A DNA stretch of 64,000 nt from Synechococcus sp. PCC 7502 (GTDB taxonomy: Bacteria > Cyanobacteriota > Cyanobacteriia > Pseudanabaenales > Pseudanabaenaceae), in NCBI RefSeq assembly GCF_000317085.1, contig NC_019702.1:2758394-2822393 (forward strand), given 5' to 3'. Made by a program: the position numbers and the translations under genes. Positions 22,143-60,160 of this stretch are shown here, in pieces (position 1 is the stretch's first letter; each line of letters opens with the position of its first letter). Under the pieces are notes generated by a model that was given only the letters and a program-made list of their open reading frames with translations, searched no databases and was not told the origin of the DNA.

Positions 22143-22143
22143 T

Positions 22144-32590: not shown

Positions 32591-32723
32591 CCCTTCCCAT
32601 TAAACCCCTCATCATGCCTAATGTCCAGAGGTGGTTTGCGAGTGATCTCATAAATCAAGAAAATTTAGATGGAAATCAAATTAATAAAATGACTGTAGGG
32701 ATTGCCATCACTTGTTTCGAGGA
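32591..32723 (-). promoter_or_regulatory. CRISPR leader
   Basis: 133 bp between cas2 and the first repeat in transcription order. AT-rich distal half, and TGAGATCACTCGCAAACCAC before the first repeat. It should hold the array promoter and the Cas1-Cas2 integration signal. No clear promoter pair can be chosen by eye. Confidence 0.65.
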
Positions 32724-33002: not shown

Positions 33003-33009
33003 AAATAAA

Positions 33010-33999: not shown

Positions 34000-34010
34000 A
34001 AGCCAAGAAA

Positions 34011-34286: not shown

Positions 34287-34314
34287 AATACATATCGCTA
34301 GGTAGAGTTAATAA

Positions 34315-34653
34315 CTAGGCTACGGCATATCCCGTATATTGTCTGAAGCTTGGCTCCTGAAATCCTAATACGATATCTGATTTAGGAATACCTGCCTCAA
34401 CTAATTCATTCGTAACGATAGATTCGGTTCCATCTCTTTGAACCCACACTAAACCATCAATAATTTCTATATGAATAAGGCAGCCATGAACGCACCGATG
34501 ATTTTTATCCCAGCCTACTGAAATAACTATGTACTCATCAGTTTTAGGGTCAAAAGCAGCTTTGTTTTTAGCGTTGACGTTAGCATAATTAACATCAATG
34601 TATCGATTCAAAACGTTGCAAATAATTTGACGGTAAGTTGCTAGTTTATCCAT
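34315..34653 (-). CDS. xisI: XisI family protein, without XisH
   Basis: 112 residues. YRQIICNVLNRYIDVNYANV, FDPKTDEYIVISVGWDK, IEIIDGLVWVQRDGTESIV and DIVLGFQEPSFRQYTGYAVA match XisI, named from the fdxN excision element of Anabaena, where XisH and XisI are needed with the recombinase XisF. Its usual partner XisH, a nuclease-like protein, is absent. It sits within the cas gene run. Confidence 0.9.
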   Translation of the reverse strand: MDKLATYRQIICNVLNRYIDVNYANVNAKNKAAFDPKTDEYIVISVGWDKNHRCVHGCLIHIEIIDGLVWVQRDGTESIVTNELVEAGIPKSDIVLGFQEPSFRQYTGYAVA

Positions 34654-34701
34654 TGCACAATTATCTCCTGATCAGAGTTAAAAATAATAAGATTGATAAA
34701 T

Positions 34702-35952
34702 TTACCCAATCAACTCCAAAACTGTTTTATTAAGTAAATCAAAAGAGGATTCATTTGGAAGAGTCAATAGCTTAACTAACTTTTTCATAATAGCAATTAC
34801 CCCCACCCCGTTATCAATCACAGAAACACCCTCAAACCGATGAACTCGACGATTGCGCTGTTCGCAGTATTCATTAAGCTTCTTGATATGTATAAGCACA
34901 TTTTTAAGTTCGGCATAATAATCTAAGATCCCGATTAAGTGAAATCTGTTAGGATACCCTTCTGGTGTTAAATCCCATCCTTTTACACGATAATCCTTTA
35001 ATAACTCCTGATAAGGTTTCCCCCCATCAACCATCTTCACCTTATGCCAAAAATCAACAGCTTCTTGCAAATTATTAGGTACGGAAATCCGTAGCTTTTT
35101 TACTAATAATAATGCTAAAAAACACTCCTGAAACTGTGAGATTAAAACTAAAAACTCTGAAAATTCTAGATTTTTATAACGAACTAAAGCATTAAAATAT
35201 AATTCTTTACAAATCGCATCTAACTTTCTCTGCCGAAGAGCAGCAATCTCTTGTAATAACTGCGGATTTATATCAATTTTTACTAGTTTAATATTAGAAA
35301 ATGCTCTATTAAAATCAAAAGCCATCCGACATCGCCCATACTCTAATAGGAGAATTGCATCATCACAATTTAAACAAGAAATTTTAAGAGATCTTAAGGC
35401 ACCTCCATAGTTGTAATCTTCCAGTTGTTTAACAATCACTCGCCGATCAAACTCTCTCCGCAAAACGGTCACATTAGTCTCAAAAATCCTCTCTTGTCCT
35501 TCCTTCATCTCATAGGGATTTCGCACTTGCAGAACCCGACCATTTTGAACATAACCCGATGCTTGTAACAAACTAAAAGCCGATTTCATAGCAGGCGTTC
35601 CAGATGAGGCATTAAATTCAATGCGATCGCCTAATTCCAAGCTTTTTTGAATAAATTCTAGCCCCTTTTTTGCCTCTTCTGCTGCCAATAACAAGTCAAT
35701 TGGATCATCAGACAAATCTTGACTTACTTTAATAAGCGATACACTTGTACTTAAAAGCCCTATTTCGGACTCAATCCAATCTTTGGTATCAATGGCACCT
35801 TGCTGGGTAGATTCGGTATAAAGTAGTACGACTTCTTTAATTTCACATCCATCTGCGACTAAGTAACGTAACAACGAAATAATAGACCCTTCGTTATTTC
35901 CCTTGGCAAAGGGGTCTTGCAAACCTACAAACGATAAAACAATACTAGCCAT
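34702..35952 (-). CDS. CARF-HEPN ribonuclease (Csm6/Csx1-type), first copy
   Basis: 416 residues. The N-terminal CARF-like domain has IVLSFVGLQDPF and GDRIEFNASSGTPAMKSAFSLLQ (ligand loop). The C-terminal HEPN domain has an Rx4H motif, RNRRVH, near residue 367. Expected to bind cyclic oligoadenylate made by Cas10 and cut RNA. It starts 2 bp after the second CARF-HEPN gene and shares little obvious sequence with it. Confidence 0.8.
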   Translation of the reverse strand: MASIVLSFVGLQDPFAKGNNEGSIISLLRYLVADGCEIKEVVLLYTESTQQGAIDTKDWIESEIGLLSTSVSLIKVSQDLSDDPIDLLLAAEEAKKGLEFIQKSLELGDRIEFNASSGTPAMKSAFSLLQASGYVQNGRVLQVRNPYEMKEGQERIFETNVTVLRREFDRRVIVKQLEDYNYGGALRSLKISCLNCDDAILLLEYGRCRMAFDFNRAFSNIKLVKIDINPQLLQEIAALRQRKLDAICKELYFNALVRYKNLEFSEFLVLISQFQECFLALLLVKKLRISVPNNLQEAVDFWHKVKMVDGGKPYQELLKDYRVKGWDLTPEGYPNRFHLIGILDYYAELKNVLIHIKKLNEYCEQRNRRVHRFEGVSVIDNGVGVIAIMKKLVKLLTLPNESSFDLLNKTVLELIG

Positions 35953-35954
35953 GA

Positions 35955-37454
35955 TTATATGGATGCTGGTTGATATTTAGCGATCGCTTTTTCTATATCT
36001 TGATGAATATTAGCCATTAAACTTGCCTGACCCAGAGAATCAAAAGTTTGCTCGGTAATAAAATTTAAGAAGCTGAGAATTTGATTTTCCCACTCAATTT
36101 GTCCTTGCACCTCCCAAAATTCCCAAAGCTGGGTTTCAGTCATACCCAGTAGTTGATGAAAAACTATATTTCTTCTATCAGTAATCTTCAATCCCTCTTT
36201 CCAAAACATTTTTAATTCTTTACAGTCAGTTTCGTAATTTTTACGGATGTTTCGGAAAAGTTTGCATAAAGAACTCAAATCCAATAATATTCCACTTTCT
36301 TTTTCGATTTTACATTTTAGTTTTGCTAAATCGTCCTTAGGGTCACCATTAGACTTAAACTTAGCAGTCTGAAAATAGTTTTTTTCATCCGTCAGTATTG
36401 AAGGCTGAAGCATAGGCTTGCCTTTTTCTTTGTGGATATGCCCCCTAAACTCTTGATCGCCCCATTTCGAGAAAATGCCTTCAAAAGTACGAAAGCTATG
36501 AAAGAAAGCTTCAACAATATTTTCCTGAGTAAGCCTGACTACCCCTAAATAGGCTGCTTCATATCCAGTCCACCACCATTGTTGCGATCGTTCTTGAGCC
36601 TTATCACCTAAAACATCTGCAAACTCTTGAAATTTAGAGTTATTCCAATACATTGCAGCTTCTAATAGTTTTTCAATATGTAGATTTTGAGAAAAATAAG
36701 GTTTAAGAATTGAATCTACAGCTTCATAGTCGAAACGCTTCAGAAGAGCTAAAGCCTCTTTTTGTCTTCGATCCCAAAGATAGTTAGCTCCTAGAGAAGG
36801 ATTTCCATAAAGTGATGCTTTGCCAGAGAGATTACGTTCCTTATCGATAGAGAAATCATAAAATATAGCATTTTCCGCAAATTGACTTAGAGCAGTAATT
36901 CTAGAAGCTTCAGAAGACTGTCCAACTCCCCCCTTAAGACAAAGGATAACGGGTAAATCTTCACTCAGTTTCGATGTGATGTAATTCCATATGCCCTTCC
37001 ACCATTGAAACATCTCCTCAAAGTTTGAAGGGTTGTATCCTTCATGCCCTTGTAAGATTACTTCTACAGGCACCTCAAAATACTTTTTAATCCACAGTTG
37101 GATAATTTTGGCAGAATAAAGTGTATCTTCTCCTCTAAAACTTACAGATTCCAATTGATCTGTACCGATCAAATAAATTTTTTCTAATTCTTTAGACTTA
37201 TCTTGAAGTAGCTGCCCTATGATTATTGGCTGAAGGCGATCGCTATATTCATCCCAAGATTCCAGAAAGAAGTTGGTTATTTCCCGCAAGGATGTATTTA
37301 CTTTCCCAACATCCTCTTGGACTAACATCCTATCAGTTTTGCTATTGCCTTCAGCTTGTTTGTCTCCAATATTTCGCCATTCTCCAGTAGATACCTGAAA
37401 TGCCAAATCTCGTGTGCCAATTGTTGCCACCAAAATTGATCTTTTGTTAGACAT
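35955..37454 (-). CDS. CARF-HEPN ribonuclease (Csm6/Csx1-type), second copy
   Basis: 499 residues. N-terminal ILVATIGTRDLAFQV and VILCLKGGVGQSSEASRITAL are CARF-like strands and loop. The C-terminal HEPN motif is DRRNIVFH near residue 426. It probably responds to cyclic oligoadenylate; a different ring size from its neighbour is possible given the divergence. Part of the cmr operon. Confidence 0.78.
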   Translation of the reverse strand: MSNKRSILVATIGTRDLAFQVSTGEWRNIGDKQAEGNSKTDRMLVQEDVGKVNTSLREITNFFLESWDEYSDRLQPIIIGQLLQDKSKELEKIYLIGTDQLESVSFRGEDTLYSAKIIQLWIKKYFEVPVEVILQGHEGYNPSNFEEMFQWWKGIWNYITSKLSEDLPVILCLKGGVGQSSEASRITALSQFAENAIFYDFSIDKERNLSGKASLYGNPSLGANYLWDRRQKEALALLKRFDYEAVDSILKPYFSQNLHIEKLLEAAMYWNNSKFQEFADVLGDKAQERSQQWWWTGYEAAYLGVVRLTQENIVEAFFHSFRTFEGIFSKWGDQEFRGHIHKEKGKPMLQPSILTDEKNYFQTAKFKSNGDPKDDLAKLKCKIEKESGILLDLSSLCKLFRNIRKNYETDCKELKMFWKEGLKITDRRNIVFHQLLGMTETQLWEFWEVQGQIEWENQILSFLNFITEQTFDSLGQASLMANIHQDIEKAIAKYQPASI

Positions 37455-37515
37455 GATTTCTAAATTCTTATTTGTTTGAAATATTTTTTATGTCTTGGCT
37501 GGGCGATCGCACTTT

Positions 37516-39444
37516 TTAAGTGAATGGAAAAATTTGAATTGCTCCTTTTAATTTACTAATAAATGCTTTGCGTGGGTCTTCGGTTGCTCCAAATACAGTA
37601 ACAACTTGATATTCACCTATACTAGCTATCCAGACTGGAGAAGGTTTTACTTCTTTACCTACAATGCCGCAGAGATTACCATCATAGGTTTCCTCACCAC
37701 GCCGATCTTTAACCTTTAACTGCTTACTATGCAAAACTGACAGCGCATAGGGCTTACCATAATCCTCATCACCCCCACACAGCACAATCTTACAATTTTT
37801 ATCCACTGCCTCACGCCAGTGATCGCCACTAATCGCAGTTGGTGCAGCTAGATTTCCTTTAGAATTGCTCAACTCTCTTAGTGCTTCGGAAAAATGCTTG
37901 ATCTTGGATTGATATAGCTTTTGTATATCTTTTAACTCATCAGGAAGATCCCAGAAAGCATCATCACTATCGATAAAGAATGTAGAACCACGATACCAGG
38001 GGGCACGTTCTCGAGTTTTTCGGGAGTAACAAGGTCTTCTTGCTCCTTGTCCGATTCCACCGAGGTTAAACATCAACCAAGTAAGACTCCTAAACAACTT
38101 TTCGACATTTTCGGGCTTTTGAGCGTTTGGTTCTGTCGAATGAGACAAGGTTAAAATACCAGCCTGTTCTCCACATTTATCATCCCTACCTTGAGTATTT
38201 GGACGTGGTTCTTTCTGTACCACAGCACCTTCTAAAATTCGTACTTGTACCCATCCACTACCCTGAATATCCAGAGATCCAAAAAGATTTCCTTCCCATT
38301 CATTAACTAGTTTTGCAGGAATAATCCCTAATGCAAAGGCACGAAACCAATAACGTAGCATTGACTTAAAAGCAATAGGGCGAACCTCAGCTTCAGCCTG
38401 ACCACGCATTTGATATTCATTACGGCGATCGTTCCATTGCCACTGTGTAAACTTCTGGCGACCATGAATAAGTTGACCTTCTAAGCCAAACTCAACTCTA
38501 AAAAACTCACGACTAGAGCGATCGCTTTCACCAGCCTTAAGCAAAGCCCCATATCCTGAATTAACCTGAGAACCGGCACCATTTATTAAGCCAGCCGTCA
38601 ACCAGCCCATCACCTTATCAATTAGTGCTTTTTTAGCATTATCACTCACTGTACTCGCTGCCCTAATGCCAATTAAAAAAATCGGCTCCTGCAAAGATAA
38701 AAATGGATTGGGATTAGGTTCATACTCTAGACAACCATCTTTCCACTTCCAAATATTATTTGCCATATCTACAGTCAAACCGCCCGACATATCATCACGA
38801 CTAGGGACAGGATAGGCATCCAGAAAAACTATCTTGCCCATACGATCGCTATCTTTGGCATCCAGAGAACCAAAATATTTCTCGACTTCCTTCTCATTAT
38901 TTAACTGACGAAATGCCTCAGCCCTTGCCACACCCCGCAAGGTACTTGAAGGAATATATGGCATCCCTAAAGCATCAAAAGCTGGTAACAAAATACTCTC
39001 GGGTCCGCGATGTCCGCCTACTCGAATTCGCCAAGGGCATTTCACTTGAAAATAGTTACCCTCTCCTGCAATCTTCTTAGTCCGTTCGGTCAATTTTGTT
39101 AAGCGTTTAGAATAGTCAGCTTTGTCTTCGGACAACTGTAAAATCTGGAGCTTTGTTCCGTCTTTGTTTCCTTGATCTAGCGATCGCATCCAGCGCAAAT
39201 ATTCAACAAAACTCGCCGAAGGATCAATTTTCTCAGGAGATCGTCCCATTAACCAAGGCGAAGGCTCTTGATTATTACCACCATTACCTCCACCGCCATG
39301 ATTTCCACCACCTTGATTGCCTCCTCCACCTCTAGCAGGTGCTGGAATTACTTTCTTTTGTGTCTTTGGTGTTTGAATAGCAGGATTAGGCTTTGTTGGG
39401 GCTGTAGTAGGTCTTTGAGGCGCGTTTGGTCTTGTAAATGCCAT
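37516..39444 (-). CDS. Cmr6-Cmr1 fusion protein
   Basis: 642 residues. A Pro/Gly-rich disordered N-terminus (GGGGNQGGGNHGGGGNGG, about 38-60). A Cmr6-like RAMP domain (about 65-305) has PYIPSSTLRGVARAEAF and GLINGAGSQVNSGYGAL. A Cmr1-like RAMP domain (about 320-640) has VRPIAFKSMLRYWFRAFALG, NLFGSLDIQGSG and GGIGQGARRPCYSRK. Both subunits sit at the 3'-guide end of the type III-B effector, so fusion is structurally sensible. Confidence 0.82.
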   Translation of the reverse strand: MAFTRPNAPQRPTTAPTKPNPAIQTPKTQKKVIPAPARGGGGNQGGGNHGGGGNGGNNQEPSPWLMGRSPEKIDPSASFVEYLRWMRSLDQGNKDGTKLQILQLSEDKADYSKRLTKLTERTKKIAGEGNYFQVKCPWRIRVGGHRGPESILLPAFDALGMPYIPSSTLRGVARAEAFRQLNNEKEVEKYFGSLDAKDSDRMGKIVFLDAYPVPSRDDMSGGLTVDMANNIWKWKDGCLEYEPNPNPFLSLQEPIFLIGIRAASTVSDNAKKALIDKVMGWLTAGLINGAGSQVNSGYGALLKAGESDRSSREFFRVEFGLEGQLIHGRQKFTQWQWNDRRNEYQMRGQAEAEVRPIAFKSMLRYWFRAFALGIIPAKLVNEWEGNLFGSLDIQGSGWVQVRILEGAVVQKEPRPNTQGRDDKCGEQAGILTLSHSTEPNAQKPENVEKLFRSLTWLMFNLGGIGQGARRPCYSRKTRERAPWYRGSTFFIDSDDAFWDLPDELKDIQKLYQSKIKHFSEALRELSNSKGNLAAPTAISGDHWREAVDKNCKIVLCGGDEDYGKPYALSVLHSKQLKVKDRRGEETYDGNLCGIVGKEVKPSPVWIASIGEYQVVTVFGATEDPRKAFISKLKGAIQIFPFT

Positions 39445-39480
39445 AGCTAGATTCTCCTGAAAAATTAAAATTAACTCTCT

Positions 39481-40125
39481 TTAAAAAATATCCTTGAGAG
39501 ATTGACGGAACTCTCTTAGCATCGAACTTGCCCCGATTGCAATCGCCCGACTCACAAGTTGCGGAATCAGAGTCTTAATTGCTAAATCTGGAAACAACAA
39601 ACTATCCTTAGACTCAACATACTGCCCTTCTCTTAGCAAAAAGATCTTTAAAGTATCATCGCTATAAACCCACACTTCAGGCACTGCGATCTCTTGATAG
39701 GCAGAAAGCAAAGTCTTAGAGGTTACATCAGACTCGATCGCCAAATCAGGGGGTGGAAAAATATCCACATCAATTCGTCCCTGACAATTTCGCACTGCCG
39801 CCGAATTAGCAATATAAAAACAAGTATCAGGCTCCAAGCCTGCCCTACACTGCCTTTGAAAAGTGGTTGAGCCAAAGTCTTCCCAATCTCTACCCTGAGC
39901 ATCCAAAATTGCCTTGACAATATCTCCAGCGATCCGATGGGGGCGTTCATGTCTTGATAATGGCGACATAATTTCTAAAGTACCTTGGTAGTATGCAATG
40001 CGGGTATGGCGATCTTCCCCTAACTCATTGAGAATATTTTCACAATCTCCCCAACTTAGAGAATGGATAGCGATCGTACTTCCATGTCGTAGGTCTATCG
40101 ATTTAATCGGAATAGTAACACTCAT
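39481..40125 (-). CDS. Uma2-family PD-(D/E)XK nuclease-like protein
   Basis: 214 residues. GTLEIMSPLSRHERPHRIAG, LEPDTCFYI and PPDLAIESDVTSKTLLSAYQEIAVPEVWVY are the Uma2 (DUF820) landmarks, with Asp and Glu in nuclease-like places. Uma2 genes are very common in cyanobacteria and poorly understood. It lies inside the cmr operon, 2 bp from cmr5, so it is co-transcribed with the effector. Confidence 0.85.
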   Translation of the reverse strand: MSVTIPIKSIDLRHGSTIAIHSLSWGDCENILNELGEDRHTRIAYYQGTLEIMSPLSRHERPHRIAGDIVKAILDAQGRDWEDFGSTTFQRQCRAGLEPDTCFYIANSAAVRNCQGRIDVDIFPPPDLAIESDVTSKTLLSAYQEIAVPEVWVYSDDTLKIFLLREGQYVESKDSLLFPDLAIKTLIPQLVSRAIAIGASSMLREFRQSLKDIF

Positions 40126-40127
40126 AA

Positions 40128-40520
40128 TTAGTCATCTCCAGATACATCATAGTAAATTGCTGTTGTCCAAAAGCTAAATTCTTGAGCGATCGCTAACCCC
40201 AGACCTGTTATGCCAAGATACTCATCTACTGTCAAGGCTTTCAATGTTGATAATCCTTGATTATTTGCCAAATTTTGCTTACCAGAGATATCTTCAAGAC
40301 ATCTAAAGAAAGCCTTAACAGACTGCTCTCGCCCGTCAGTTCCTAATGCTATTTCCTCAGCTTTTAAACGCATTAGTCCCCAAGTAGAAAGATAAGTGTA
40401 AAGTTCCTGTGCCTGACTTTTTTGCTTTTTAACAATCGGATCATTTTTATCTCTACCTCCTCTTAGGTTGACTAGGGAATCATAGACGGATGTCCCTAAT
40501 TTACGTGGATCGAATGTCAT
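40128..40520 (-). CDS. cmr5: Type III-B small subunit Cmr5 (Cas11)
   Basis: 130 residues, helical. AQELYTYLSTWGLMRLKAEE and AIAQEFSFWTTAIYYDVSGDD fit Cmr5, the inner filament subunit of the Cmr effector. Assigned from the helical pattern, length and place after cmr4. Confidence 0.8.
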   Translation of the reverse strand: MTFDPRKLGTSVYDSLVNLRGGRDKNDPIVKKQKSQAQELYTYLSTWGLMRLKAEEIALGTDGREQSVKAFFRCLEDISGKQNLANNQGLSTLKALTVDEYLGITGLGLAIAQEFSFWTTAIYYDVSGDD

Positions 40521-40532
40521 AATTACTCCTTT

Positions 40533-41320
40533 TTAGATAAATAGTTGAACAAAACCACGACCTAAGCTTTCTTGCCCACCAATCTGTAAAATGGAATCTT
40601 TTTTTAATAGTGTTTTGAAATCAGTTAAAGCTTTTTGACTACTGCCATTGGCTTGCGAGGTCACACCCCAAGGGAAGTACATCAGGGTGTCAGGGGGAAT
40701 TGCTTCTTCATAACGAAACCCACCATCAACAGTTTTGTCTTGATCAAGCTTGATTTTGACCTGTCGCCATAAGCTCATCTGAATTAGCGTGGCACAATGC
40801 TGATCGGGCAAAACCAAAACATTTTTCATTCCTTCAGACTCAGGATGATTGGTTGTGAACTTATCCCAATCCGTCCATTTTCGCAAGTCAGCAGCAGGTA
40901 AGATCGCATCCTTTAGATACACAGGAGCATTAGTGGACAAACTCGTGGAATAGGGATCGGGTACTTCTAATTTATCAGGATTGCCAGCAAATCTCAGCCA
41001 ACGCCGTAAGAGAAGAGGTGAACTTACCCAGACTACCCCATGACTTAATGAAGGTACAGGCAACCAAAGAATAGAACCATCACCAATCCAAATCGAACCT
41101 TGCTCAAGTTGGACTCCATCAGCTATTTCATTACCAAATAAAGCAAATTTTTTCTGTTGATCACTCTCACTCGATCTCAACCTACCCCGAATCGTACTAG
41201 AGGGTATGTAAGGTAAATTTGTATGAGACTCACGAGCGATTCCCAGCAGATTACCCTCTTGAGTTGTGCCTCCTGTATGAAGTGGGGCAATTAAGTATAA
41301 GTAAGTCAATTCCATAGTCA

Positions 41321-41321
<1 letters not shown>
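40533..41321 (-). CDS. cmr4: Type III-B backbone subunit Cmr4 (Cas7)
   Basis: 262 residues. LYLIAPLHTGGTTQEGNLLGIARESHTNLPYIPSSTIRGRLRS is the Cmr4 start and IGGQESLGRGFVQLFI its C-terminal glycine-rich RAMP loop. Cmr4 repeats along the guide and cuts target RNA every 6 nt. Stop and start overlap cmr3 by 1 nt. Confidence 0.92.
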
Positions 41322-45477
<4,156 letters not shown>

Positions 45478-45657
45478 AATTTTTATTCCTTACTGCAACC
45501 AAACACACTCTAACAGTAAAACATAATGATTTCTACTATTTCCTAATATTTTTATGTAGTTATTAATATTCTGTAAAAACTATATTTAGTAATATTTTAG
45601 GACTATAAAATATTTGTTCTTAAAATAATAACTTTTGTTTTTTGGTTATAATAAAAT
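45478..45657. promoter_or_regulatory. Divergent control region between cas10 and the WYL regulator
   Basis: 180 bp, about four fifths A/T. A perfect 9 bp inverted repeat AATATTTTA (45591-45599) / TAAAATATT (45606-45614) with a 6 bp spacer is a good operator candidate. TATAAT at 45647-45652 lies only about 5 bp before the WYL ATG, so if it is the -10 that message is nearly leaderless. Confidence 0.6.
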
Positions 45658-46830
45658 ATGCCAAAATTCTCTAAACCTCATTCTTATAGCGATCGCCAAG
45701 CATTTGAAAGATTAATGCTTTTGATTGCTACACTGATTAAGTATCCTGGTATTGGCAGTGCTGATTCGGTAGATAAATGTATGGAGGAAAGAGGAGAACA
45801 TGATTCTATTGCAATCGTAAAACGGAAGCTAGGTGAAATATCACAGAAATTTGGCATAGAGCTTGATTGTTCCATTCCTACAATTCGTAAGGATATGCTA
45901 ACTCTGCGAAACTATGGGATTCTAGAAAAACGAATGTACCGATGGGGTTACTATCTGGGAACTGGAGTGATGACAAAAGAAGAGTTAAGCGTTGCCCTTA
46001 ATGCCTTTGCTTCATTGGCAGAATATCAGCGATCGCCCAAGGTAATGAAAATATATGCGTCGTTAACAAAAAGATTACAAGGATTTAATTCTGAAGGTAA
46101 TAGTAAGTTTTTATATCCTGTTAGATCACAAATTAATAGAGCGATCGTGCATACAGACATTGAGGAAATGGTAAGTGATAGGCAATATAAAAATACTTTA
46201 TTTCATTCACTTGATACTGTAGAAATAGCTATTACAGAAGGGCAAGCAGTAGAAATAGATTGTTGCTCCGATCCTTATGAAGGGGAGCTAGGATTGATTA
46301 CAATTTATCCTTTGCAACTGATTTATCATGATATTGCTTGGTATTTACTATATGAAAAATGTGAGAATAATCACCTTGTAATAGCCCGTATTGATAGATT
46401 TACCGATCATTGCAGAATAATTAACTTTCAAACTCGCAGCATAGAAGTTCAAATACAAAACTTAGAGATAGCTCATAAGTTAATAAATAATGGATGGGGA
46501 CTATATCTAGGAAATCCCGTGGAACAAAAATTAGAGCGTGAACGCAAACTTAATTTTGAAGTTGTAAAAGTTCGCTTTTTTGCTCCAGTTATAAAATTTA
46601 TTGAAGAAGGACAAAAGCGGCATATTTCTCAGAAAATTAATTGTAAGGGTAAGCCCCAGTTTATTGATTATCAAGTTGATCTACCCTCTAGATCTTTTAG
46701 TGAGTTTAGCCGATGGGTAGGACGATTTATGGAGAATGCTGTTGTCCTATCACCTAATAATCTTGTGGAAAAACATAGAGAATCAGCTAAGAAGTTAAAT
46801 GAAATTTATAGCCTTTCTAGTACTCAGTAA
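45658..46830 (+). CDS. WYL-domain transcription regulator
   Basis: 390 residues. Winged-helix-like N-terminus (IPTIRKDMLTLRNYGILEKRM), then a WYL domain (IYPLQLIYHDIAWYLLYEKC, VIARIDRFTDH) and a C-terminal WCX-like part. WYL proteins often sense nucleic acids or nucleotides and repress CRISPR and other defence loci. Transcribed divergently from cas10 and probably controls it. Confidence 0.85.
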   Translation: MPKFSKPHSYSDRQAFERLMLLIATLIKYPGIGSADSVDKCMEERGEHDSIAIVKRKLGEISQKFGIELDCSIPTIRKDMLTLRNYGILEKRMYRWGYYLGTGVMTKEELSVALNAFASLAEYQRSPKVMKIYASLTKRLQGFNSEGNSKFLYPVRSQINRAIVHTDIEEMVSDRQYKNTLFHSLDTVEIAITEGQAVEIDCCSDPYEGELGLITIYPLQLIYHDIAWYLLYEKCENNHLVIARIDRFTDHCRIINFQTRSIEVQIQNLEIAHKLINNGWGLYLGNPVEQKLERERKLNFEVVKVRFFAPVIKFIEEGQKRHISQKINCKGKPQFIDYQVDLPSRSFSEFSRWVGRFMENAVVLSPNNLVEKHRESAKKLNEIYSLSSTQ

Positions 46831-50032: not shown

Positions 50033-50398
50033 TTAGCCCAAGCTATCATCCATCCAACCGCATGACTGACAATCATAATGAATGATCTTTACGTTCTGGG
50101 GGTAACTTCCGCCACAATTCGGGCAAACACCTGTAAAAAATGGATGGGTATTCAAAATTTCCCACTGTTGCGATCGCTCTAAAGTCGGCTCAAAATCTAC
50201 TGGATAAATAATTGGCATTCTGTATAGCTGCTCATCAATGAATGTAAAACCTATTGGACTCAACAATTCTTGAACCTCTGGGTCTAATAAAAAGTCTGGA
50301 CAGCGATTACCTTCTACTCCTGATGGATGAATAGCACAAACTAGATAGTTACTATGGGCATTGAATTTACAGCGATCGCACTGGGGAATTTTCTTCAT
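50033..50398 (-). CDS. Zinc-ribbon protein, unknown
   Basis: 121 residues. CDRCKFNAHSNYLVCAIHPSG at the start and CPNCGG ... YDCQSCGW at the end, two metal sites. A type of protein often seen in cyanobacteria. Function unknown. It has a one-mismatch copy of the element motif at 50093. Confidence 0.7.
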   Translation of the reverse strand: MKKIPQCDRCKFNAHSNYLVCAIHPSGVEGNRCPDFLLDPEVQELLSPIGFTFIDEQLYRMPIIYPVDFEPTLERSQQWEILNTHPFFTGVCPNCGGSYPQNVKIIHYDCQSCGWMDDSLG

Positions 50399-53026: not shown

Positions 53027-53536
53027 CTATCTGTTACTCTTTCTAAAATCCCAAGGAAACTGATAATTTCCACCATCCCAGACCCCGACTTTATTAGCTT
53101 TAGCTCTATCTTCAGCTTGCCTAATTTGTTCACGATGCGGGCAACCTTGGGAGTATTGCTTGTACTCATAGGCGTAACCTTGCCTGACTACCTCGGCATT
53201 AATGAAAGTATTACCTAGAAATAATTCTGCTACTGTTCGCCCATAGCGATCGCTACCCGTTCGACTTACCTCTACCTTGCCACCCTTGAGAAGCTGCTTC
53301 ACTAAATCGGTTGCCTCCTTGCCGTATGGCTGCGCTGGTTTATTTCCATGCTTAATTTCGGGGGCATCAACACCGCAGAATCTCACTCTCTCGATAGTTC
53401 CACTGCAACTTACTTTGATCGTGTCTCCATCATTTACCTTGATGACATCACACGTTCTAGGGGTAGCTTGCACAGGAATAGCCAAGATTACCAATGCGAT
53501 ACTCAATGACAATGGGATAAATGCCAAATATTTCAT
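53027..53536 (-). CDS. Secreted thermonuclease (SNase family)
   Basis: 169 residues. Signal peptide (FIPLSLSIALVILAIPVQA). VIKVNDGDTIKV, RVRFCGVDAPEIKHG, QPYGKEA and DRYGRTVAELFL hold the catalytic Arg/Glu/Arg and calcium Asp. Degrades DNA/RNA outside the cytoplasm. It begins next to a terminator that belongs to the upstream operon. Confidence 0.92.
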   Translation of the reverse strand: MKYLAFIPLSLSIALVILAIPVQATPRTCDVIKVNDGDTIKVSCSGTIERVRFCGVDAPEIKHGNKPAQPYGKEATDLVKQLLKGGKVEVSRTGSDRYGRTVAELFLGNTFINAEVVRQGYAYEYKQYSQGCPHREQIRQAEDRAKANKVGVWDGGNYQFPWDFRKSNR

Positions 53537-53584: not shown

Positions 53585-54187
53585 TTACAGACCAAATTGC
53601 TGGGATGCTTCGTATGCCACGCCATTTGAGCAAAGAGGTGGGAATGAATCAGTAGTAGGCACAAAGTACAAGACATCATTTACTCTAAATCCAGCAGCAG
53701 GAGAGACTGGGAAAGTACTTGATGGTCTTAACGTCAAGGTTCCGCAAGCATCAGTGGTAATCTGTCTGGTTCTTGGGGTAATTACACCAACTTCAGCAGC
53801 ATAGTTAGGTGTTTGTCCTACCAATACAACTTGACCTCTAGGGGTCTTGAAATTGGCTGTAGCAGGAATGTCTAATAAACCATTTACACAACGAGGTATG
53901 GCACGAGTTTCTAGGGTATTAGGGTCAATAGTCGATCCACCAAGAACCACATAGCTAACTGTTTGATTACTAGAAGCAGGAGCAACGGTAATTAAGCCAC
54001 ATTGGTTAGCTAGTATGCGTCTGGTGACAGTTCCATCATTTAGCTGGACATTGTACTGAGTGCTTGGACTTAGACCAGAAACGTATGCCCTATTGGATGA
54101 GTCTTTAGTTACGGTAATTTCAGCATTAGCAGCAAGCGGGGCGATCGCTGAGAGTAGAGCCAAACTTAGAATTAGTTGATTTTTCAT
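53585..54187 (-). CDS. Exported protein, paralogue 3 of 3
   Basis: 200 residues with a signal peptide (MKNQLILSLALLSAIAPLAANA). Mature part is beta-rich and shares with the next two genes TVTRRILANQCGLITV, the PRCVNGLLDI block and the TRQITTDACGTL block. Shared Cys suggest a disulfide. Probably a cell-surface or periplasmic protein. No known family recognised. Confidence 0.7.
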   Translation of the reverse strand: MKNQLILSLALLSAIAPLAANAEITVTKDSSNRAYVSGLSPSTQYNVQLNDGTVTRRILANQCGLITVAPASSNQTVSYVVLGGSTIDPNTLETRAIPRCVNGLLDIPATANFKTPRGQVVLVGQTPNYAAEVGVITPRTRQITTDACGTLTLRPSSTFPVSPAAGFRVNDVLYFVPTTDSFPPLCSNGVAYEASQQFGL

Positions 54188-54227
54188 GGTTTTAGATAAG
54201 TAGATAAGTATGTCAGTAACTAGTTAA

Positions 54228-54848
54228 TTAACCACCAGCACCTTGGGGAATAAACTTGGGCAAGTAGAGAACATTTTGCTCACCAACCCTACGGCAGATA
54301 GGAGCAGCTTCGATATTTAGACCGATCACAGGTTGACCAACACCATTAACCCTGACTTGGTTGCCAATAGTAAAACTAGATGAGTTTGCGACTCTAACTA
54401 CACCACAGGCATTAGTAGTAAATTGTCTGGTTCTTTTCCCAGTTACTACTACGTCAATGGCTAAGTTTGGAGTTTGAGCAACTAAAACTACAGTGTTGGT
54501 TGTAGTTCGGAAGTTTCCCGTTGGGTTAATATCCAAAACTCCATTAGTACAAGTAGGAATAGTCCCAACTTCCAATGAACTTGGATCAACTGTCGCCCCA
54601 CCTTGAGGGGTAATGGAGGTTGGTAATTCAGTTGCAGCCAAGGGGCGCACAACCAGCAAGCCACACTCATTAGCCAATACTCTGCGAGTGACAGGAGTAT
54701 CTCCAAACTCAATCGTTAGTGGAGCTTTTGGAATACCAGTGCGGACATAGACCCTACCATCAGTATCTCTAGTCACCGTTTCAGCTATTGCAGACTGGCA
54801 AGTGATTCCTGACAGTACAACCAAACTTAGAATTATTTGATTTTTCAT
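54228..54848 (-). CDS. Exported protein, paralogue 2 of 3
   Basis: 206 residues, signal peptide ILSLVVLSGITCQSAIA. Shares TRRVLANECGLLVVRPLAATELP, PTCTNGVLDINPTG and PICRRVGEQNVLYLPK with paralogue 1. The close match of these blocks shows recent tandem duplication. Confidence 0.72.
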   Translation of the reverse strand: MKNQIILSLVVLSGITCQSAIAETVTRDTDGRVYVRTGIPKAPLTIEFGDTPVTRRVLANECGLLVVRPLAATELPTSITPQGGATVDPSSLEVGTIPTCTNGVLDINPTGNFRTTTNTVVLVAQTPNLAIDVVVTGKRTRQFTTNACGVVRVANSSSFTIGNQVRVNGVGQPVIGLNIEAAPICRRVGEQNVLYLPKFIPQGAGG

Positions 54849-54870
54849 CTTTTTACTTAGTTAGTTGAGA

Positions 54871-55503
54871 TTAGGTAACACCTTGCTGACCCGAATTGGT
54901 TTTAGGCAAGTACAAAATATTTTGTTCACCAACCCTGCGGCAGATAGGTGGAGCTTCGGTACTCAGTCCATTAACTAGCGTATCTGAACCACCTTGAACC
55001 TTCAAAACACCGCCTATATTGAAACTAGCTGAATTTACAACTCTGGCAACTCCACAGGCATTAGTAGTAAATTCTCTAGTTCTTTTACCAGTGATCGATA
55101 CATCAATCGCTAAGTTAGGCTGTGCACCAACAATAACCACACTATTATTTGTAGTTCGGAAGCTTCCCGTTGGAGTGATACTAAGGACTCCATTAGTACA
55201 AGTTGGGATAGCAGAAACTGGCAGTGAGTCAGGTAAAATCGATGGACTACCAGATGGCACAATAAGCTGTGGTAATTCAGTTGCAGTCAGTGGACGCACA
55301 ATCAACAAACCACATTCATTAGCCAATACTCGCCGAGTTACTGGACTGCTATTAAAATCTATGCTTACTGGAGTTCTTGGAGTTCCAGTCCTTACATAGA
55401 CTCTGCCATCTGGGTCTTTAGTTATCGTTTCAGCTATTGCAGATAGTGGAGCGATCGCCCCGAATATAGCTAGAGAAGAGAGAATTAAATTGAAAGCTTT
55501 CAT
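54871..55503 (-). CDS. Exported protein, paralogue 1 of 3
   Basis: 210 residues from the ATG at 55503 (MKAFNLILSSLAIFGAIAP), chosen for the signal peptide and AGGAAAGG upstream; the longer frame to 55548 lacks support. Same blocks: VTRRVLANECGLLIVRP, TREFTTNACGVARV, RRVGEQNILYLPK. Confidence 0.72.
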   Translation of the reverse strand: MKAFNLILSSLAIFGAIAPLSAIAETITKDPDGRVYVRTGTPRTPVSIDFNSSPVTRRVLANECGLLIVRPLTATELPQLIVPSGSPSILPDSLPVSAIPTCTNGVLSITPTGSFRTTNNSVVIVGAQPNLAIDVSITGKRTREFTTNACGVARVVNSASFNIGGVLKVQGGSDTLVNGLSTEAPPICRRVGEQNILYLPKTNSGQQGVT

Positions 55504-55561
55504 TTTTCCTTTCCTAGAATTAATATTAGTTCTAAGAAAGATCACCAATCTTAATATAAAG

Positions 55562-55591
55562 CCTCTATGACTAAATCACAGAGGTTTTTTT
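55562..55591 (+). terminator. Terminator-like hairpin, plus-strand orientation
   Basis: CCTCT (55562-55566) pairs with AGAGG (55580-55584), with a TGA/TCA inner stem, then seven T. Its direction is opposite to the exported-protein operon. Confidence 0.5.
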
Positions 55592-55623
55592 ATCTATCCT
55601 TTCCCCTAGAACGTGCGATACCT

Positions 55624-55788
55624 ATGCAATTACCAAATTGTCCTAAATGTGGGATTAATGAATTAAAAGTAGAGACACCAGATAATCACGGGGTAATTGC
55701 TGACTTTTCCTACTGGCAATGTCAGGCTTGCGGATGGTTTTCACCGATTTATTATTATCCACATGAACAGCCAGAACTTGAAGATTAA
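55624..55788 (+). CDS. Small zinc-ribbon protein
   Basis: 54 residues from the ATG at 55624 (MQLPNCPKCGINELKV), with a second pair CQACGW: a Cys4 ribbon. The frame is open to 55567 but that part overlaps the hairpin. Unusual plus-strand gene within a minus-strand cluster; its stop overlaps the next convergent gene by 4 bp. Confidence 0.55.
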   Translation: MQLPNCPKCGINELKVETPDNHGVIADFSYWQCQACGWFSPIYYYPHEQPELED

Positions 55789-56825
55789 CCTTCATCCCCT
55801 AGAACAATTCTTTTAATCTTGGCAGCTTGCGATCTCATGGCAGACTTTTGGCGAGTTACATCTAGTCTGGTCCGATCGAGTCCATTCTGAAGGGCAATAA
55901 AACTATTAGTATCACCCTCGCCCAAGCGGTAAGCTACTTCTATTAACTTAAAACGACTAGCTTCACGGTTAGCGATCGCCTCGGCAATATCAGCAGCTAC
56001 TTTAACTTGATCGAACTGGATCAGACTTTGAATAACAGAATCCTCTATCCTTGCTTTGACATCTAGCTTAGCCTTTTCGATTTCAGCTATCCGTAATTGC
56101 AAAGTGGCATTATTCTGAGCAGCAGTCTGGTCTTGTCTGGCATTACCTCCAAGATTAGTAATTACGCTACTAAGAGTGGTACCAAGTCCTAATACTGTAT
56201 TTGGCACTGCTAGGAATGGGACGAAAGGCTGTAACTGCGTAAAGATGTTACCTTGGGCTGCTTGGGCAATGGACTTAACATTAGCTTCATTCTGTTGGAT
56301 TTGTTGATCTAGTGCTTTTAGTGTTGGGCTATTAGCGATCGCTCTCTCGGTCAAAAGTTTTATACAAGCGGCTGATGAGTCAAGGCATGGTAAATCAGCT
56401 TTCAGCAATTCAAACTCACCTTGCTTATCCATTTTATCTGCTAATTCTCGTGGGGTAGATATATCTGGATCACTCTCTGTATCTGGATTCGCACCATCAT
56501 TTACCTTGATACCTTGCGGGATTTTACCAGTGGGCTGCAGTTTGCCAGGCGTAATTAATTTACCCGTTCTAGGGGTAGTAATTACTGGCTTAACTGAATT
56601 AGGTCTACTTACATTAGGAGCAGTTGGTGTACCGGGGGCTTTCCCCGTGGGGGTAGTAGCAGCTTCATCAACATCCTTACCATCGTCATAGCCTTGGTCT
56701 GTGTCGTCACTTTTTGGGGCTGGTTTTTGTTGGGCGATCGCTGCCTGAGTTAATTGCAAGCACGAGATCATACTGAAGCTTATTGTCAGACTGACCAGCA
56801 AGTTTAATCCTTTTAACGACTGCAT
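55785..56825 (-). CDS. TolC-like exported coiled-coil protein
   Basis: 346 residues. Signal peptide (LLVSLTISFSMISCLQLTQAA), a Pro/Thr-rich linker (about 40-125), then a helical region (about 160-345) with SPTLKALDQQIQQNEANVKSIAQ and FKLIEVAYRLGEGDTNSFIALQNGLDRTRLDV, like one half of an outer-membrane efflux (TolC) repeat. Only one half is present, so it may be a truncated or oligomeric form. Its 5' end overlaps the HlyD-like gene by 119 nt. Confidence 0.7.
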   Translation of the reverse strand: MQSLKGLNLLVSLTISFSMISCLQLTQAAIAQQKPAPKSDDTDQGYDDGKDVDEAATTPTGKAPGTPTAPNVSRPNSVKPVITTPRTGKLITPGKLQPTGKIPQGIKVNDGANPDTESDPDISTPRELADKMDKQGEFELLKADLPCLDSSAACIKLLTERAIANSPTLKALDQQIQQNEANVKSIAQAAQGNIFTQLQPFVPFLAVPNTVLGLGTTLSSVITNLGGNARQDQTAAQNNATLQLRIAEIEKAKLDVKARIEDSVIQSLIQFDQVKVAADIAEAIANREASRFKLIEVAYRLGEGDTNSFIALQNGLDRTRLDVTRQKSAMRSQAAKIKRIVLGDEG

Positions 56826-57744
56826 TATATGGACTCCTAACTGTAGTAAGTGTTTTTAACTGGGTTTCAACCTCTGCCATCTTGCCGTTGAGGGTAGCAA
56901 TTTGGAATGTACGCTCTTGCTCTTGTTTTTGGTATTCGGCAAGCGATCGCTGATATTGAGCCGCTATCTGATTTTGGTCTTGCTCAAACTTGGCAATAGT
57001 TTCAGAATAACGATATTCATCGTATGCCCTGCGGTCTTTAGCAGCTTGGTACTTACCCTCGGCAAGCTCTTGATCGGACTTAGCCTTATCTAAATCTGCT
57101 TGATATTCAATTAGTTTTTGCTGCTCATGGATTAGTACCGCTTGGGGTAAATCTCGCTCGTCAAAAGTTCCCAGTACATCGATCTTGCGCTGCTGAAGCT
57201 TTACTTTTTCCTCGGCTGCTTTGACCTTGAGGATTTGATTATTAATCGTAGCGATCTCTTCGGCATAGGTGATGCTAGGTAGTTTGATTGGTACTTTTAC
57301 TGGCTTTGGTGCGAGTGGGGGAATAGAGGCAATATTCAGACGAGCGATTGAGTTAGTTAGTGCAACTTTCTGAACGGTCAATCTATCTCTTTCCTTGTCA
57401 CGATCCGCTACTACCTGCTCCTTCTTCACCTCATCCCCTTGCTTTACCTTGAGGTCTTCGGGACTAGAAACATTTACAGTCAATTTTAATAATCTTGGGT
57501 CTGACGTTCTAGGGGTAACTATTTCTGGTTCGACTTCAACCACTGGCGGCGTAGATTCTTGGGCGATCGCTTTCTGCATATTGGCAACCGTGCTACCAAT
57601 GCCGAAACCACTGGCAACAATCGGCAATATTACCCATGCTGTCGCCAACCATTTACCAATACGGCTTGGCTGATACCGTTTAGCTATCTCCTGTTGTTCA
57701 GGCAATTCAAACCCCAGAGCTAATAACTGTTGATTATTCATCAC
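56707..57744 (-). CDS. HlyD-like membrane-fusion protein
   Basis: 345 residues. A single membrane helix near 30-55, a lipoyl-like strand (LKVKQGDEVKKEQVVAD), a long coiled-coil hairpin (about 130-290) and a second half-lipoyl part VRSPYNAVVKRIKLAGQ. This is the periplasmic adaptor layout of type I secretion and efflux systems. No ABC transporter or RND pump gene is next to it. Confidence 0.75.
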   Translation of the reverse strand: MMNNQQLLALGFELPEQQEIAKRYQPSRIGKWLATAWVILPIVASGFGIGSTVANMQKAIAQESTPPVVEVEPEIVTPRTSDPRLLKLTVNVSSPEDLKVKQGDEVKKEQVVADRDKERDRLTVQKVALTNSIARLNIASIPPLAPKPVKVPIKLPSITYAEEIATINNQILKVKAAEEKVKLQQRKIDVLGTFDERDLPQAVLIHEQQKLIEYQADLDKAKSDQELAEGKYQAAKDRRAYDEYRYSETIAKFEQDQNQIAAQYQRSLAEYQKQEQERTFQIATLNGKMAEVETQLKTLTTVRSPYNAVVKRIKLAGQSDNKLQYDLVLAINSGSDRPTKTSPKK

Positions 57745-58765
57745 TACGCACCTTTACGATTACACGACCTTGAGAAATAAACTGATCACCTAGTACTGGC
57801 AATAAATCCGACTTACGAGCATTAACCAGTTTGATTTGACCACCGAAAATTGAGATTGGGGCATACCGTTCTACTAATAGCGGTGCCTTTGCCTCATTTA
57901 AGTCATCGACAATTAAAGAACCAGTGACATAGGCATTATTTTGCAGTTGGTTTAGCCAATCGACACCCAATATATTTTCTAGCTCTACCTCTTTAGAAGC
58001 GATCGCCACAGGATCACCAAGTCGAGTCTCAACGCTAACTGGTTTAATTTGACTGGAAGGATCATTACCGATCTGATACAGCCTACGCTTACTATCTTCG
58101 GCAATTACTGAGTTCAAACCTCCTGAGCTAATCACCTTAAACTCTTCATCTACAGCTTGATTCGTGATGACATGATTACCTTTAACCTTAATGAAAACTT
58201 GCTGAGTTGAGCCATACCGCTTAAACATCTCACTTGCTGTACCAGCATCTCTAAAGAAGCTTCTAGCAAAATTCTCCGTAACTCCGCCATTGCTGATTAG
58301 ATTGCAACTGATTATTAGAATTGTGGTAGCGATCGCTAAAATCCAAAATTCAGCCGAGCTTCCTGCTCTGATCCGATTATTGGGATTCCCCGGTATTACC
58401 AATCTTTTCGTACTTGGATAAAAAGCACCCACACCAGCTTTAGTAAAAGTGTCGGCAAACCAGCCCATAAAAAAGCCTAAGTTAATAGCTGCCCACCATT
58501 GCCAATTTAGAAATACCAACATCGGAGCCGTGGCGATCGCTATGATTCCCGAAGCCATAAAACTATGACTAACTGACCTATGGGCATATTTAGTTTCGAG
58601 CCATGCTGCTAATGGATAAAATGCTCTGCCCGTAAATGATTTTGTCGTGTCAATGTCTGGAAGTTGTGAAGCTATAGCAGCTACCCCTAGAACAAGGGGA
58701 TTAGCCGTACCGATTGCTAAAGAAGTTGTACAAGCAGCGATCGCCGCATGGGTGACACTCATCAT
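57734..58765 (-). CDS. YdjM/LexA-bound-type membrane metal-dependent hydrolase
   Basis: 343 residues. The N-terminal 180 residues match the YdjM family (SQLPDIDTTKS, AHRSVSHSFM, GWFADTFTKAGV), with several membrane helices and conserved His/Asp. The C-terminal part (about 180-343) is a soluble domain not usual for the family. Overlaps the HlyD-like gene by 11 nt. Confidence 0.8.
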   Translation of the reverse strand: MMSVTHAAIAACTTSLAIGTANPLVLGVAAIASQLPDIDTTKSFTGRAFYPLAAWLETKYAHRSVSHSFMASGIIAIATAPMLVFLNWQWWAAINLGFFMGWFADTFTKAGVGAFYPSTKRLVIPGNPNNRIRAGSSAEFWILAIATTILIISCNLISNGGVTENFARSFFRDAGTASEMFKRYGSTQQVFIKVKGNHVITNQAVDEEFKVISSGGLNSVIAEDSKRRLYQIGNDPSSQIKPVSVETRLGDPVAIASKEVELENILGVDWLNQLQNNAYVTGSLIVDDLNEAKAPLLVERYAPISIFGGQIKLVNARKSDLLPVLGDQFISQGRVIVKVRSDE

Positions 58766-58770
58766 AGTTT

Positions 58771-59622
58771 TTAGCCTTTACTACCTAACTTTGTGGATTT
58801 TTTATTAATCTGCATGAAGAAGACTCTGAGCGTAATTGCAAGCACCGTAAAGATTCCACCGATGATATACAAGCTCTTATCGCCCAGCCCCAGCCCAATA
58901 AAGCGCAGGATTGCCACCAGTGACACAGCAGCTATCAAGAATGGAGTGCCATCGACATATTCCGTATGATCACCCGCTTCCCCATCACCTAAGCCCAGAA
59001 CCTCTTCCCGTACTGCCCTCTTAGCTAAGTAAGGATTACCCCCAGAACGTTCTTGAAGCTCTGCAAGTTTCGAGTTATCAACATTTACCCCAAGCTCCTG
59101 AGCTTCAGCAATCATCAGGCTTCTGAGTCTATCTGTTTGAATTGATTTCAACTCTGTGCGGGGCATCTTTAAAAAAATATCTCTCCTTGGGGGACGGGTA
59201 GCAAGCAGAAAAATTACACCGCCATCGGCGCAGATTTCTTCTAGCCAATATCTAAGGCTACTGGGGTATCGGTGGGCATTATCACAAATTAGGATCGGTC
59301 GTGGCTCAGTTAGTAAAACCTTTGCGATCGCATCCCGAAGTTGATCCGCAGTGAGTGGTATATCTTTCCCAACACTATTAACTCTGACAGTATCTACTCC
59401 AAGTTCCTCGGCAATAACTGTAAAAGTTTTCTTGGCACTGCCTCCGTAGTCAGCGATCGCTACGGTATATCCCCTAGAACGCAACTGATTCGCCACATTT
59501 TCGGCAAGGGTAGTCTTCCCCCCGCCATCATCCCCTAGAACAAGAATTGACTGCCCTTCTACTAGGGCTGATACTGCTCTTTGGGTGTCTTCGTGTCTCA
59601 GGTCTATATCCAGTTTGTGCAT
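58771..59622 (-). CDS. AAA ATPase (TniB/GspA-like) with two C-terminal membrane helices
   Basis: 283 residues. Walker A LGDDGGGKTT (30-38), Walker B PILICDNAHR, sensor-like LATRPPRR, then two hydrophobic helices (FLIAAVSLVAILRFIG and LYIIGGIFTVLAITLRVFF). The fold resembles TniB and GspA ATPases. Its ATG lies only 19 bp from attR, so its promoter probably lies outside the element or is formed on circularisation. Carries two perfect and one near copy of the element motif. Confidence 0.8.
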   Translation of the reverse strand: MHKLDIDLRHEDTQRAVSALVEGQSILVLGDDGGGKTTLAENVANQLRSRGYTVAIADYGGSAKKTFTVIAEELGVDTVRVNSVGKDIPLTADQLRDAIAKVLLTEPRPILICDNAHRYPSSLRYWLEEICADGGVIFLLATRPPRRDIFLKMPRTELKSIQTDRLRSLMIAEAQELGVNVDNSKLAELQERSGGNPYLAKRAVREEVLGLGDGEAGDHTEYVDGTPFLIAAVSLVAILRFIGLGLGDKSLYIIGGIFTVLAITLRVFFMQINKKSTKLGSKG

Positions 59623-59640: not shown

Positions 59641-59645
59641 GGGAA
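59641..59645 (+). other. attR core (GGGAA)
   Basis: Right partner of the 11958-11962 core. Immediately beyond it the recQ frame resumes with INKSDVRW. Confidence 0.85.
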
Positions 59646-60160
59646 TTAATAAGTCGGACGTGCGCTGGCTCATCCACTATCAGTCACCTTTAACCCTCTC
59701 TGAGTATATCCAAGAAGTTGGTAGAGCAGGCAGAGATCAGAAACCCGCCCAAGCTTTAATGCTGGTAAGTGAACCATCGGGTATTTTAGATTCAAGCGAT
59801 CGCAATCGCCACGAATTTTTTTTACAAGAACAGCAGAAACTCCGCCGTAAAGCACAGATTATTATTCCCAAACTACCAACAAAGGGTAATTATGAAGAGG
59901 TAAGCAGAAAATTTGCTGATGCGGCGATCGCCCTTGGACTTCTTCACAGCCACGGCAAATTAATTTGGCATAATCCCTTTGAATATCAAATCCTCAACGC
60001 TAAATCGGAACTTCCTGATTATGACCGTACTGCCATCGATCAGATGCAGGCATATATTTCCACTAAAAGTTGTCGATGGTCTTTTCTAATGTCAGCATTT
60101 GGATTTAACCAAGAGGCAAAAGGATTAAGATGTGGAATCTGCGATCGCTGCCGATCATAA
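59646..60160 (+). pseudogene. recQ: recQ 3' part
   Basis: Encodes INKSDVRWLIHYQSPL, the arginine-finger motif YIQEVGRAGRDQ and the zinc-binding end with CGICDRC. No own start or ribosome site. No HRDC domain, so the joined gene is a short RecQ of 474 residues. All conserved residues remain intact, which argues that the gene is still functional when the element leaves. Confidence 0.93.

Follow-up and report, generated by a model that had tools for sequence, protein, structure and literature searches.

The 64,000-nucleotide stretch of Synechococcus sp. PCC 7502 analysed here (contig NC_019702.1, positions 2,758,394 to 2,822,393; hereafter the window) carries, at the right end of a 47,683 bp element inserted in recQ, a cluster of minus-strand genes for putative envelope proteins. 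A preliminary description of the same DNA had placed seven genes here, several of them overlapping, and all seven were found in the list of open reading frames (ORFs) at the coordinates it gave. Along the minus strand they encode an AAA ATPase of 283 aa (58771-59622), a predicted YdjM-type inner-membrane hydrolase of 343 aa (57734-58765), an HlyD-like adaptor of 345 aa (56707-57744), an exported protein of 346 aa resembling one half of TolC (55785-56825), and three exported four-cysteine proteins, SEC1 (225 aa, 54871-55548), SEC2 (206 aa, 54228-54848), and SEC3 (200 aa, 53585-54187). The set was nevertheless incomplete as first described, since an exported staphylococcal-type thermonuclease (SNase; 169 aa, 53027-53536, minus strand; PF00565, 5.9e-30) lies just outside the range then considered.

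The AAA and YdjM genes are 5 bp apart, YdjM overlaps HlyD by 11 bp, and HlyD overlaps TolC by 119 bp. Gaps of 236, 22, 40, and 48 bp then separate TolC from SEC1, SEC1 from SEC2, SEC2 from SEC3, and SEC3 from SNase, respectively. The SEC genes may form a second transcription unit, because the 236-bp gap before SEC1 contains a plus-strand ORF. This ORF (window 55567-55788) encodes 73 aa with two CxxC pairs.

Parts of the envelope module

The AAA ATPase matches Pfam AAA_22 (4e-13) and ends in two hydrophobic segments (near residues 228-246 and 251-269), which are predicted to lie in the membrane, and a conserved tail, RFIGLGxGxxxLYxxGG. Of the proposed membrane-anchored, TniB/GspA-like ATPase, the AAA domain and a predicted anchor are present; the architecture of GspA/ExeA, an AAA domain plus a peptidoglycan-binding domain with GspB as partner, is lacking. 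A peptidoglycan-binding domain does not appear among the best 25 of 45 Pfam matches, and the two membrane segments leave no room for one.

The YdjM protein matches PF04307 over residues 1-152 (1e-21; 77.7 bits against a cut-off of 29) and has the conserved His/Asp residues of that family's N-terminal hydrolase domain (invariant positions H6, D37, D39, H62, H67, D105, and E139). About 190 further residues follow, corresponding to the extra soluble domain described before. In the predicted model (pLDDT 85) most of them form a two-part C-terminal beta domain (about 168-343). This addition distinguishes the module's member from the rest of the family, as does the adaptor that is encoded in the same operon or fused to it. 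Within it, residues 168-252 can be superposed on the barrel at the C-terminus of TrmB (Z 10.8, rmsd 2.2-2.4, 84 residues aligned), a likeness that gives no clue to function. Zinc-dependent phospholipase C is a weak match for the N-terminal domain (Z 4.7), and this was not used as evidence of activity.

The HlyD-like protein begins with a signal or transmembrane segment, and an alignment of 18 relatives shows two half-lipoyl motifs flanking a long coiled coil. Biotin_lipoyl_2 is recognized in 4 of the 18 relatives; the window protein itself has no lipoyl match at threshold and a weak match to DevB, and neither it nor the three SEC proteins match any Pfam family above the curated cut-off. Many of the relatives have lipoprotein-like N-termini. 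In Stanieria, Microcystis, and Gloeocapsopsis the HlyD part is preceded by an HTH-like domain, which has no significant match in Pfam or NCBIfam, could be separated by an internal start, and was not counted as a part of the module.

The TolC-like protein matches a single OEP repeat (PF02321, 1.4e-4), in agreement with the one-half TolC already noted, although the match is just above the curated cut-off and covers profile positions 90-185 only. OEP is found in 8 of 18 relatives (best 2.8e-8), and the Thermus half-TolC contains one full repeat (1-187 of 187). No real profile match links the cyanobacterial TolC-like proteins with the half-TolC proteins of Thermus or gammaproteobacteria, the identity of which is based on OEP in the former and on inspection in the latter.

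On three Thermus plasmids the YdjM and HlyD-like parts are fused into one protein of 545-549 aa, encoded beside AAA and half-TolC genes and, in two of the three, an SNase. The HlyD-like profile matches the corresponding part of the fusion with probability 95, spanning just 36 columns. As HlyD parts of the known family lie in the periplasm, the fusion would place the C-terminal domain of YdjM there too, next to the adaptor hairpin.

Conservation and optional parts of the module

Profiles built from the loci recovered the gene order AAA-YdjM-(HerA)-HlyD-TolC, followed by SEC and SNase, in many contigs, where HerA is an additional ATPase discussed below. By tblastn, YdjM is matched on 75 plasmid records from cyanobacteria, Thermus, Nitrosococcus, Allochromatium, Methylobacter, and others, and in 47 of these the match spans 80% or more of the protein. 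Among 292 cyanobacterial genomes, YdjM is matched in 27, the TolC-like protein in 18, and HerA in 18 (E < 1e-10). The 27 genomes with YdjM include every genome with the TolC-like protein and every genome with HerA (Fisher p = 2e-22 each, a value that exaggerates the association, since related genomes do not count as independent, although the direction is clear). In 20 loci from these genomes, which were picked by YdjM and are in some cases cut by contig ends, HlyD is present in 20, AAA in 18, HerA in 17, and TolC in 17.

The preliminary description had asked for such a gene-order search in other cyanobacterial islands, and had named homologues found only separately, or pump genes in the relatives' operons, as signs against a common machine. 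Instead, the same order is found on many plasmids and genomes, and the absence of a pump extends from the cluster to its relatives, as no ABC exporter or RND pump is encoded among the ORFs of the cluster or in the relatives' operons examined. Alternatively, the cluster might be a decayed remnant or an accessory of an ordinary efflux pump and have no independent role, an idea that could draw on the weak Pfam scores of the HlyD and TolC parts. We consider it highly improbable, given that the order is kept over deep divergence, that no locus examined has a pump gene, and that a well-supported clade without HerA retains all other parts. The module is real and widely conserved and, as far as the open-access literature searched is concerned, has no published description.

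Two unusual arrangements were also noticed. A Synechococcaceae metagenome bin, SM2_3_2 (L118, L119, L121-L124), contains six near-copies of YdjM, several with AAA, and HlyD, TolC, and HerA are not on the contigs seen. On plasmid pALVIN01, YdjM is followed by a CHAP-domain protein, possibly a wall hydrolase (L040:9287-10174).

In most cyanobacterial versions a HerA/T4CP-like ATPase of about 360 aa is encoded between YdjM and HlyD. Five sequences used as seeds share 52-70% identity. The Pfam matches of the ATPase (TrwB_AAD_bind, 3e-7; DUF87; HerA_C) are all above the curated gathering cut-offs, and its NCBIfam matches (CedD as the best, 2e-12, then HerA, CedB, and VirB4-like models) are all below the equivalog cut-offs. 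A GIY-YIG nuclease domain (1.1e-7) interrupts the Stanieria protein, and the one from Gloeocapsa carries an insertion at that position too. In the YdjM tree the window groups with six HerA-less loci of Leptolyngbya-like cyanobacteria (support 99/96), and the tree as a whole implies a minimum of three or four switches between presence and absence of HerA, with absence scored per contig and hence liable to error on truncated contigs.

The nearest PADLOC models to HerA are mad8 (2e-21) and DndH (5e-21). This resemblance, together with carriage on defence-rich plasmids and, in the window's element, alongside a CRISPR-like locus, would be compatible with an envelope-based anti-phage defence. Such a role is very unlikely in our view. 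Of the window's module proteins only AAA and SNase have PADLOC matches, the envelope parts have no counterpart there, HerA is missing from the window, and the module was found in no phage records or viral contigs.

The three SEC proteins and the TolC-like protein have signal-like N-termini. A family alignment of SEC1, SEC2, and SEC3 shows four common cysteines that are invariant across 11 relatives, in line with the earlier view of three exported Cys-containing paralogues, and hmmsearch placed members of the SEC1 family in the relatives' modules. The AlphaFold model of SEC2 is all-beta (pLDDT 84.7). Its best structural match reaches Z 6.2 with no clear counterpart in PDB, and low-ranking matches to adhesins and pilins are within noise. 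Two long SEC relatives (L106 and L108) contain F5/8 type C domains (5e-14 and 5e-18) and a Pro/Thr/Ser-rich linker, which suggests a lectin-like binding of surface sugars. These domains, the position of SEC genes beside TolC in many loci, and the fact that HlyD and TolC families are chiefly known from protein and drug export would fit an AAA-driven tripartite exporter that displays SEC proteins for attachment rather than passing DNA. We regard that explanation as rather doubtful, because the SEC proteins bear signal-like N-termini of the usual kind, the module lacks SEC in roughly half of the loci and in Thermus, and the commonest extra part is a DNA-translocase ATPase.

The window SNase conforms to the thermonuclease family in its profile match and has the motifs DGDT, RFCGVDAPE, and DRYGR; it also matches the PADLOC profile of the SNc+LTD nuclease. 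SNase genes accompany the module in cyanobacterial and Thermus relatives, yet are missing near many module copies, and the SNase of a Nodosilinea module (L105:15679-16200) has lost DGDT (DGSNF) and is possibly inactive. Both points tell against a device in which module and exported nuclease together block incoming plasmid, transforming, or phage DNA at the envelope and so guard the element from displacement. A nuclease alone would moreover suffice for that purpose, leaving HlyD, half-TolC, HerA, and the surface proteins in the operon unexplained. Integrative-element DNases that block transformation are a precedent for such exclusion, and an exported nuclease with its catalytic motifs, the likeness of HerA to defence ATPases, and the restriction and abortive systems that module plasmids also carry are in line with it; overall we find it unlikely.

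The integrated element and its plasmid relatives

The element is delimited by a shared core, GGGAA, at 11958-11962 (attL) and 59641-59645 (attR), the latter adjoining the cluster where an attR had been proposed. The two parts of recQ flank the element on the plus strand. The 5′ part (11053-11957) is 82% identical to the intact recQ locus of a congener (window 10939-11957), and the 3′ part (59641-60160, with RecQ_Zn_bind) is 80% identical to it (window 59660-60151). An insertion of 47,683 bp is deduced from the core at both ends and from the joining of the flanks, which restores recQ in frame across attB (GYPFVIASSAFGLGINKSDVRWLIHYQ). A large serine recombinase is encoded just within the left end (plus-strand ORF 11907-13988; Resolvase, 1.8e-30, Recombinase, and Zn_ribbon_recom), its true start being inside this ORF, downstream of the core. 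The three recombinase domains, the short common core, and the restored target gene agree with integration by a large serine recombinase.

The AAA start codon is located 19 bp from the crossover, inside attR. In the integrated state its promoter would lie inside recQ, while in the excised circle the element's left end would lie upstream. From this we infer that excision may control expression of the module, which is worth testing.

Along the minus strand of the circularized element, several backbone genes precede the module. These encode a Siphovirus Gp157-like protein (21627-22172; PF05565, 1.5e-37), a Rad52-like annealing protein (20374-20814; PF04098, 8e-11), a winged-HTH protein (17807-18667), and a DNA cytosine methyltransferase (16604-17380). 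They are followed by a solitary GspH/FimT-like pseudopilin (14118-14756; N_methyl, 3e-6; GspH, 7e-8), by attP, by AAA, YdjM, HlyD, TolC, SEC, and SNase, and by a gene at 50033-50398. A plasmid of Picosynechococcus PCC 7003 (L148) has the same order of Gp157 (4e-32), DUF1071/Rad52-like, methyltransferase, AAA, YdjM, HlyD, TolC, SNase, and a homologue of the 50033-50398 gene. Rad52-like homologues are also on pAQ5 (L130) and on L147, both of which have the winged-HTH gene at the corresponding place. The methyltransferase has homologues on L131 (7e-73), L148 (9e-51), and pAQ5 (5e-45), the last annotated as a DNA cytosine methyltransferase.

Because its circular form is colinear with these free plasmids in backbone and module order, the element is most readily interpreted as a relative, now integrated, of Picosynechococcus cryptic plasmids of the pAQ5 kind, from which it differs by the added serine recombinase, att sites, CRISPR-like locus, and three SEC genes. 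A phage origin of the module was considered and discarded. Neither phage records nor viral contigs yielded a match to it, and the element's Gp157 and Rad52-like genes are plasmid-borne as well.

Several features of the element stand apart from the module. The link of the pseudopilin to it is uncertain. About 68 residues precede its prepilin motif, and a single prepilin-type gene is also present on the module plasmids pNWAT01 (L133:37921-38442) and pTbrSNM4-1c (L169:8063-8542) and absent on others. In the methyltransferase region two same-strand ORFs (16225-17457 and 16604-17380) overlap in different frames. Several of the plasmid loci contain homologues of both, which may reflect an overlapping gene or a frameshift, or may merely follow from conservation of the DNA. 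As cargo, the element appears to carry a CRISPR-like repeat array with Cas1/Cas2-like genes and genes resembling a type III effector and a WYL-like regulator (29203-46830). Intact xseA and xseB lie within it as well (25741-27139). The xseA found elsewhere in the genome is broken (C1:21155-22345, several stops, 76-87% identity; fragment at C3:2922616-2923002), and the element's xseA may be the sole working copy.

Possible function of the module

The cluster quite possibly encodes a transenvelope machine borne on plasmids, for which DNA export or cell contact is the most likely task. More specifically, and more tentatively, we propose that AAA, YdjM, HlyD, and half-TolC, with an optional HerA pump, constitute an undescribed DNA-export and cell-contact machine that is independent of relaxases and of a type IV secretion system (T4SS) and resides on plasmids otherwise regarded as 'non-mobilizable' in cyanobacteria, Thermus, and some gammaproteobacteria. 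DNA export or hand-over is favoured because it brings together the conduit, the optional DNA-translocase ATPase, the nuclease, the surface binders, and the plasmid carriage. The insertion of a HerA/TrwB-like ATPase in most cyanobacterial operons adds weight to DNA passage, and the lectin-like domains of the long SEC relatives add weight to surface contact.

According to this proposal, the cluster would be the envelope module of a plasmid lineage turned integrative element. AAA and YdjM would sit in the inner membrane, with the periplasmic C-terminal domain of YdjM gripping the HlyD-like hairpin, which in turn would contact a half-TolC oligomer at the outer membrane; the SEC proteins would be exported to the surface, and the nuclease exported as well. 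The assembly would move plasmid DNA out of the donor, or keep cells together during hand-over, without a T4SS, and the pulling would perhaps be done by the natural-competence pili of the recipient. HerA would push the DNA in most cyanobacterial versions, and the HerA-less version of the window would depend on its own AAA ATPase, on an ATPase of the host, or on the pull exerted by the recipient.

A parallel is transjugation in Thermus, where a donor pump and the recipient competence system share DNA transfer (PMC5365140, PMC7767461). Its ICETh1 (TdtA) system resembles the proposed machine in moving DNA with no classical T4SS, in including a nuclease, in residing on an integrative element, and in using the competence of the recipient (PMC5365140, PMC7767461). 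The hexameric FtsK-family ATPase TdtA has a counterpart in the HerA-bearing relatives, in contrast to the window cluster, which has no HerA/FtsK-like gene. The described operon comprises TdtA, a restriction-methylation enzyme, NurA, and a methylase, and AAA-YdjM-HlyD-TolC is not described there. No Pfam match to NurA or a restriction-methylation enzyme was obtained for the ORFs of the cluster, the part of the element that was covered for NurA. Tripartite efflux and type I secretion systems cross the periplasm with an adaptor hairpin and an OEP-family outer part, much as the module is proposed to do. The module differs in having one OEP repeat instead of two and no ABC, RND, or MFS pump, its inner-membrane parts being an AAA ATPase and a YdjM hydrolase.

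Cyanobacteria are known to have conjugative systems (PMC3158045), and the relatives' HerA recalls T4SS and coupling proteins (VirB4, TraD/TrwB) by its TrwB_AAD_bind and weak VirB4-like matches. The envelope parts are HlyD/TolC-like instead, and no relaxase, VirB4-sized ATPase, or VirB core protein was seen (no dedicated VirB6/8/9/10 profile search or genome-wide VirB4 search having been made). CedD, the best NCBIfam match of HerA, is an ATPase that occurs, as part of a DNA exchange system, where genomes lack virB4 (PMC11868833); the Ced system of Sulfolobales (CedB, CedD) is archaeal, operates at a single membrane, and is unrelated in its remaining parts. The gene set lacks the ABC exporter of type I secretion, the RND pump of efflux systems, the two OEP repeats of their TolC, and the pump that the transjugation operon is described as having.

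A number of observations weigh against DNA export. The weakest step is the HerA-less version in the window itself. HerA was found nowhere in the window genome with either a single protein or the HerA profile, and the Thermus and gammaproteobacterial sets examined do not have it either; a DNA pump is therefore not part of the module core. The kinship of HerA to mad8 and DndH and the lack of a clear PDB match for the SEC fold count on the same side. No oriT was identified, and no relaxase was seen among the element ORFs scanned or annotated on five whole module plasmids, relaxase profiles not having been run on every element ORF. On the side of the proposal, mobility typing assigns 69 of the 75 module plasmid records as non-mobilizable, but this is weak evidence as it lacks a base rate for cyanobacterial plasmids. 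CyRepA1 was tried for this purpose and gave no clean rate, its matches mixing enterobacteria with cyanobacteria.

Published data on Synechocystis PCC 6803, whose plasmid pSYSX carries the module along with another YdjM/AAA copy, bear on the same point. There, transfer of small plasmids and of a chromosomal marker required recipient pilA1, pilQ, comEA, and comEC, and DNase cut transfer by one to two orders or abolished it (PMC10667661). The authors judged this to be natural transformation only, pSYSX and DNA release by the donor being outside their study (PMC10667661). The data fit either plain or assisted DNA release. Taken together, the transenvelope interpretation of the preliminary description stands as regards a pump-less gene set that is borne on a mobile element and conserved in order elsewhere; transfer, exclusion, and contact are possible roles, and the window copy lacks HerA.

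Module plasmids are mostly typed non-mobilizable, yet such plasmids spread. With a common module, a role in plasmid movement or in the exclusion of rivals could be tested in Synechocystis PCC 6803 (pSYSX) and Picosynechococcus PCC 7002 (pAQ5). If the proposal is true, the module would be a transenvelope assembly with an inner-membrane base unlike those of ABC, RND, and type IV systems.

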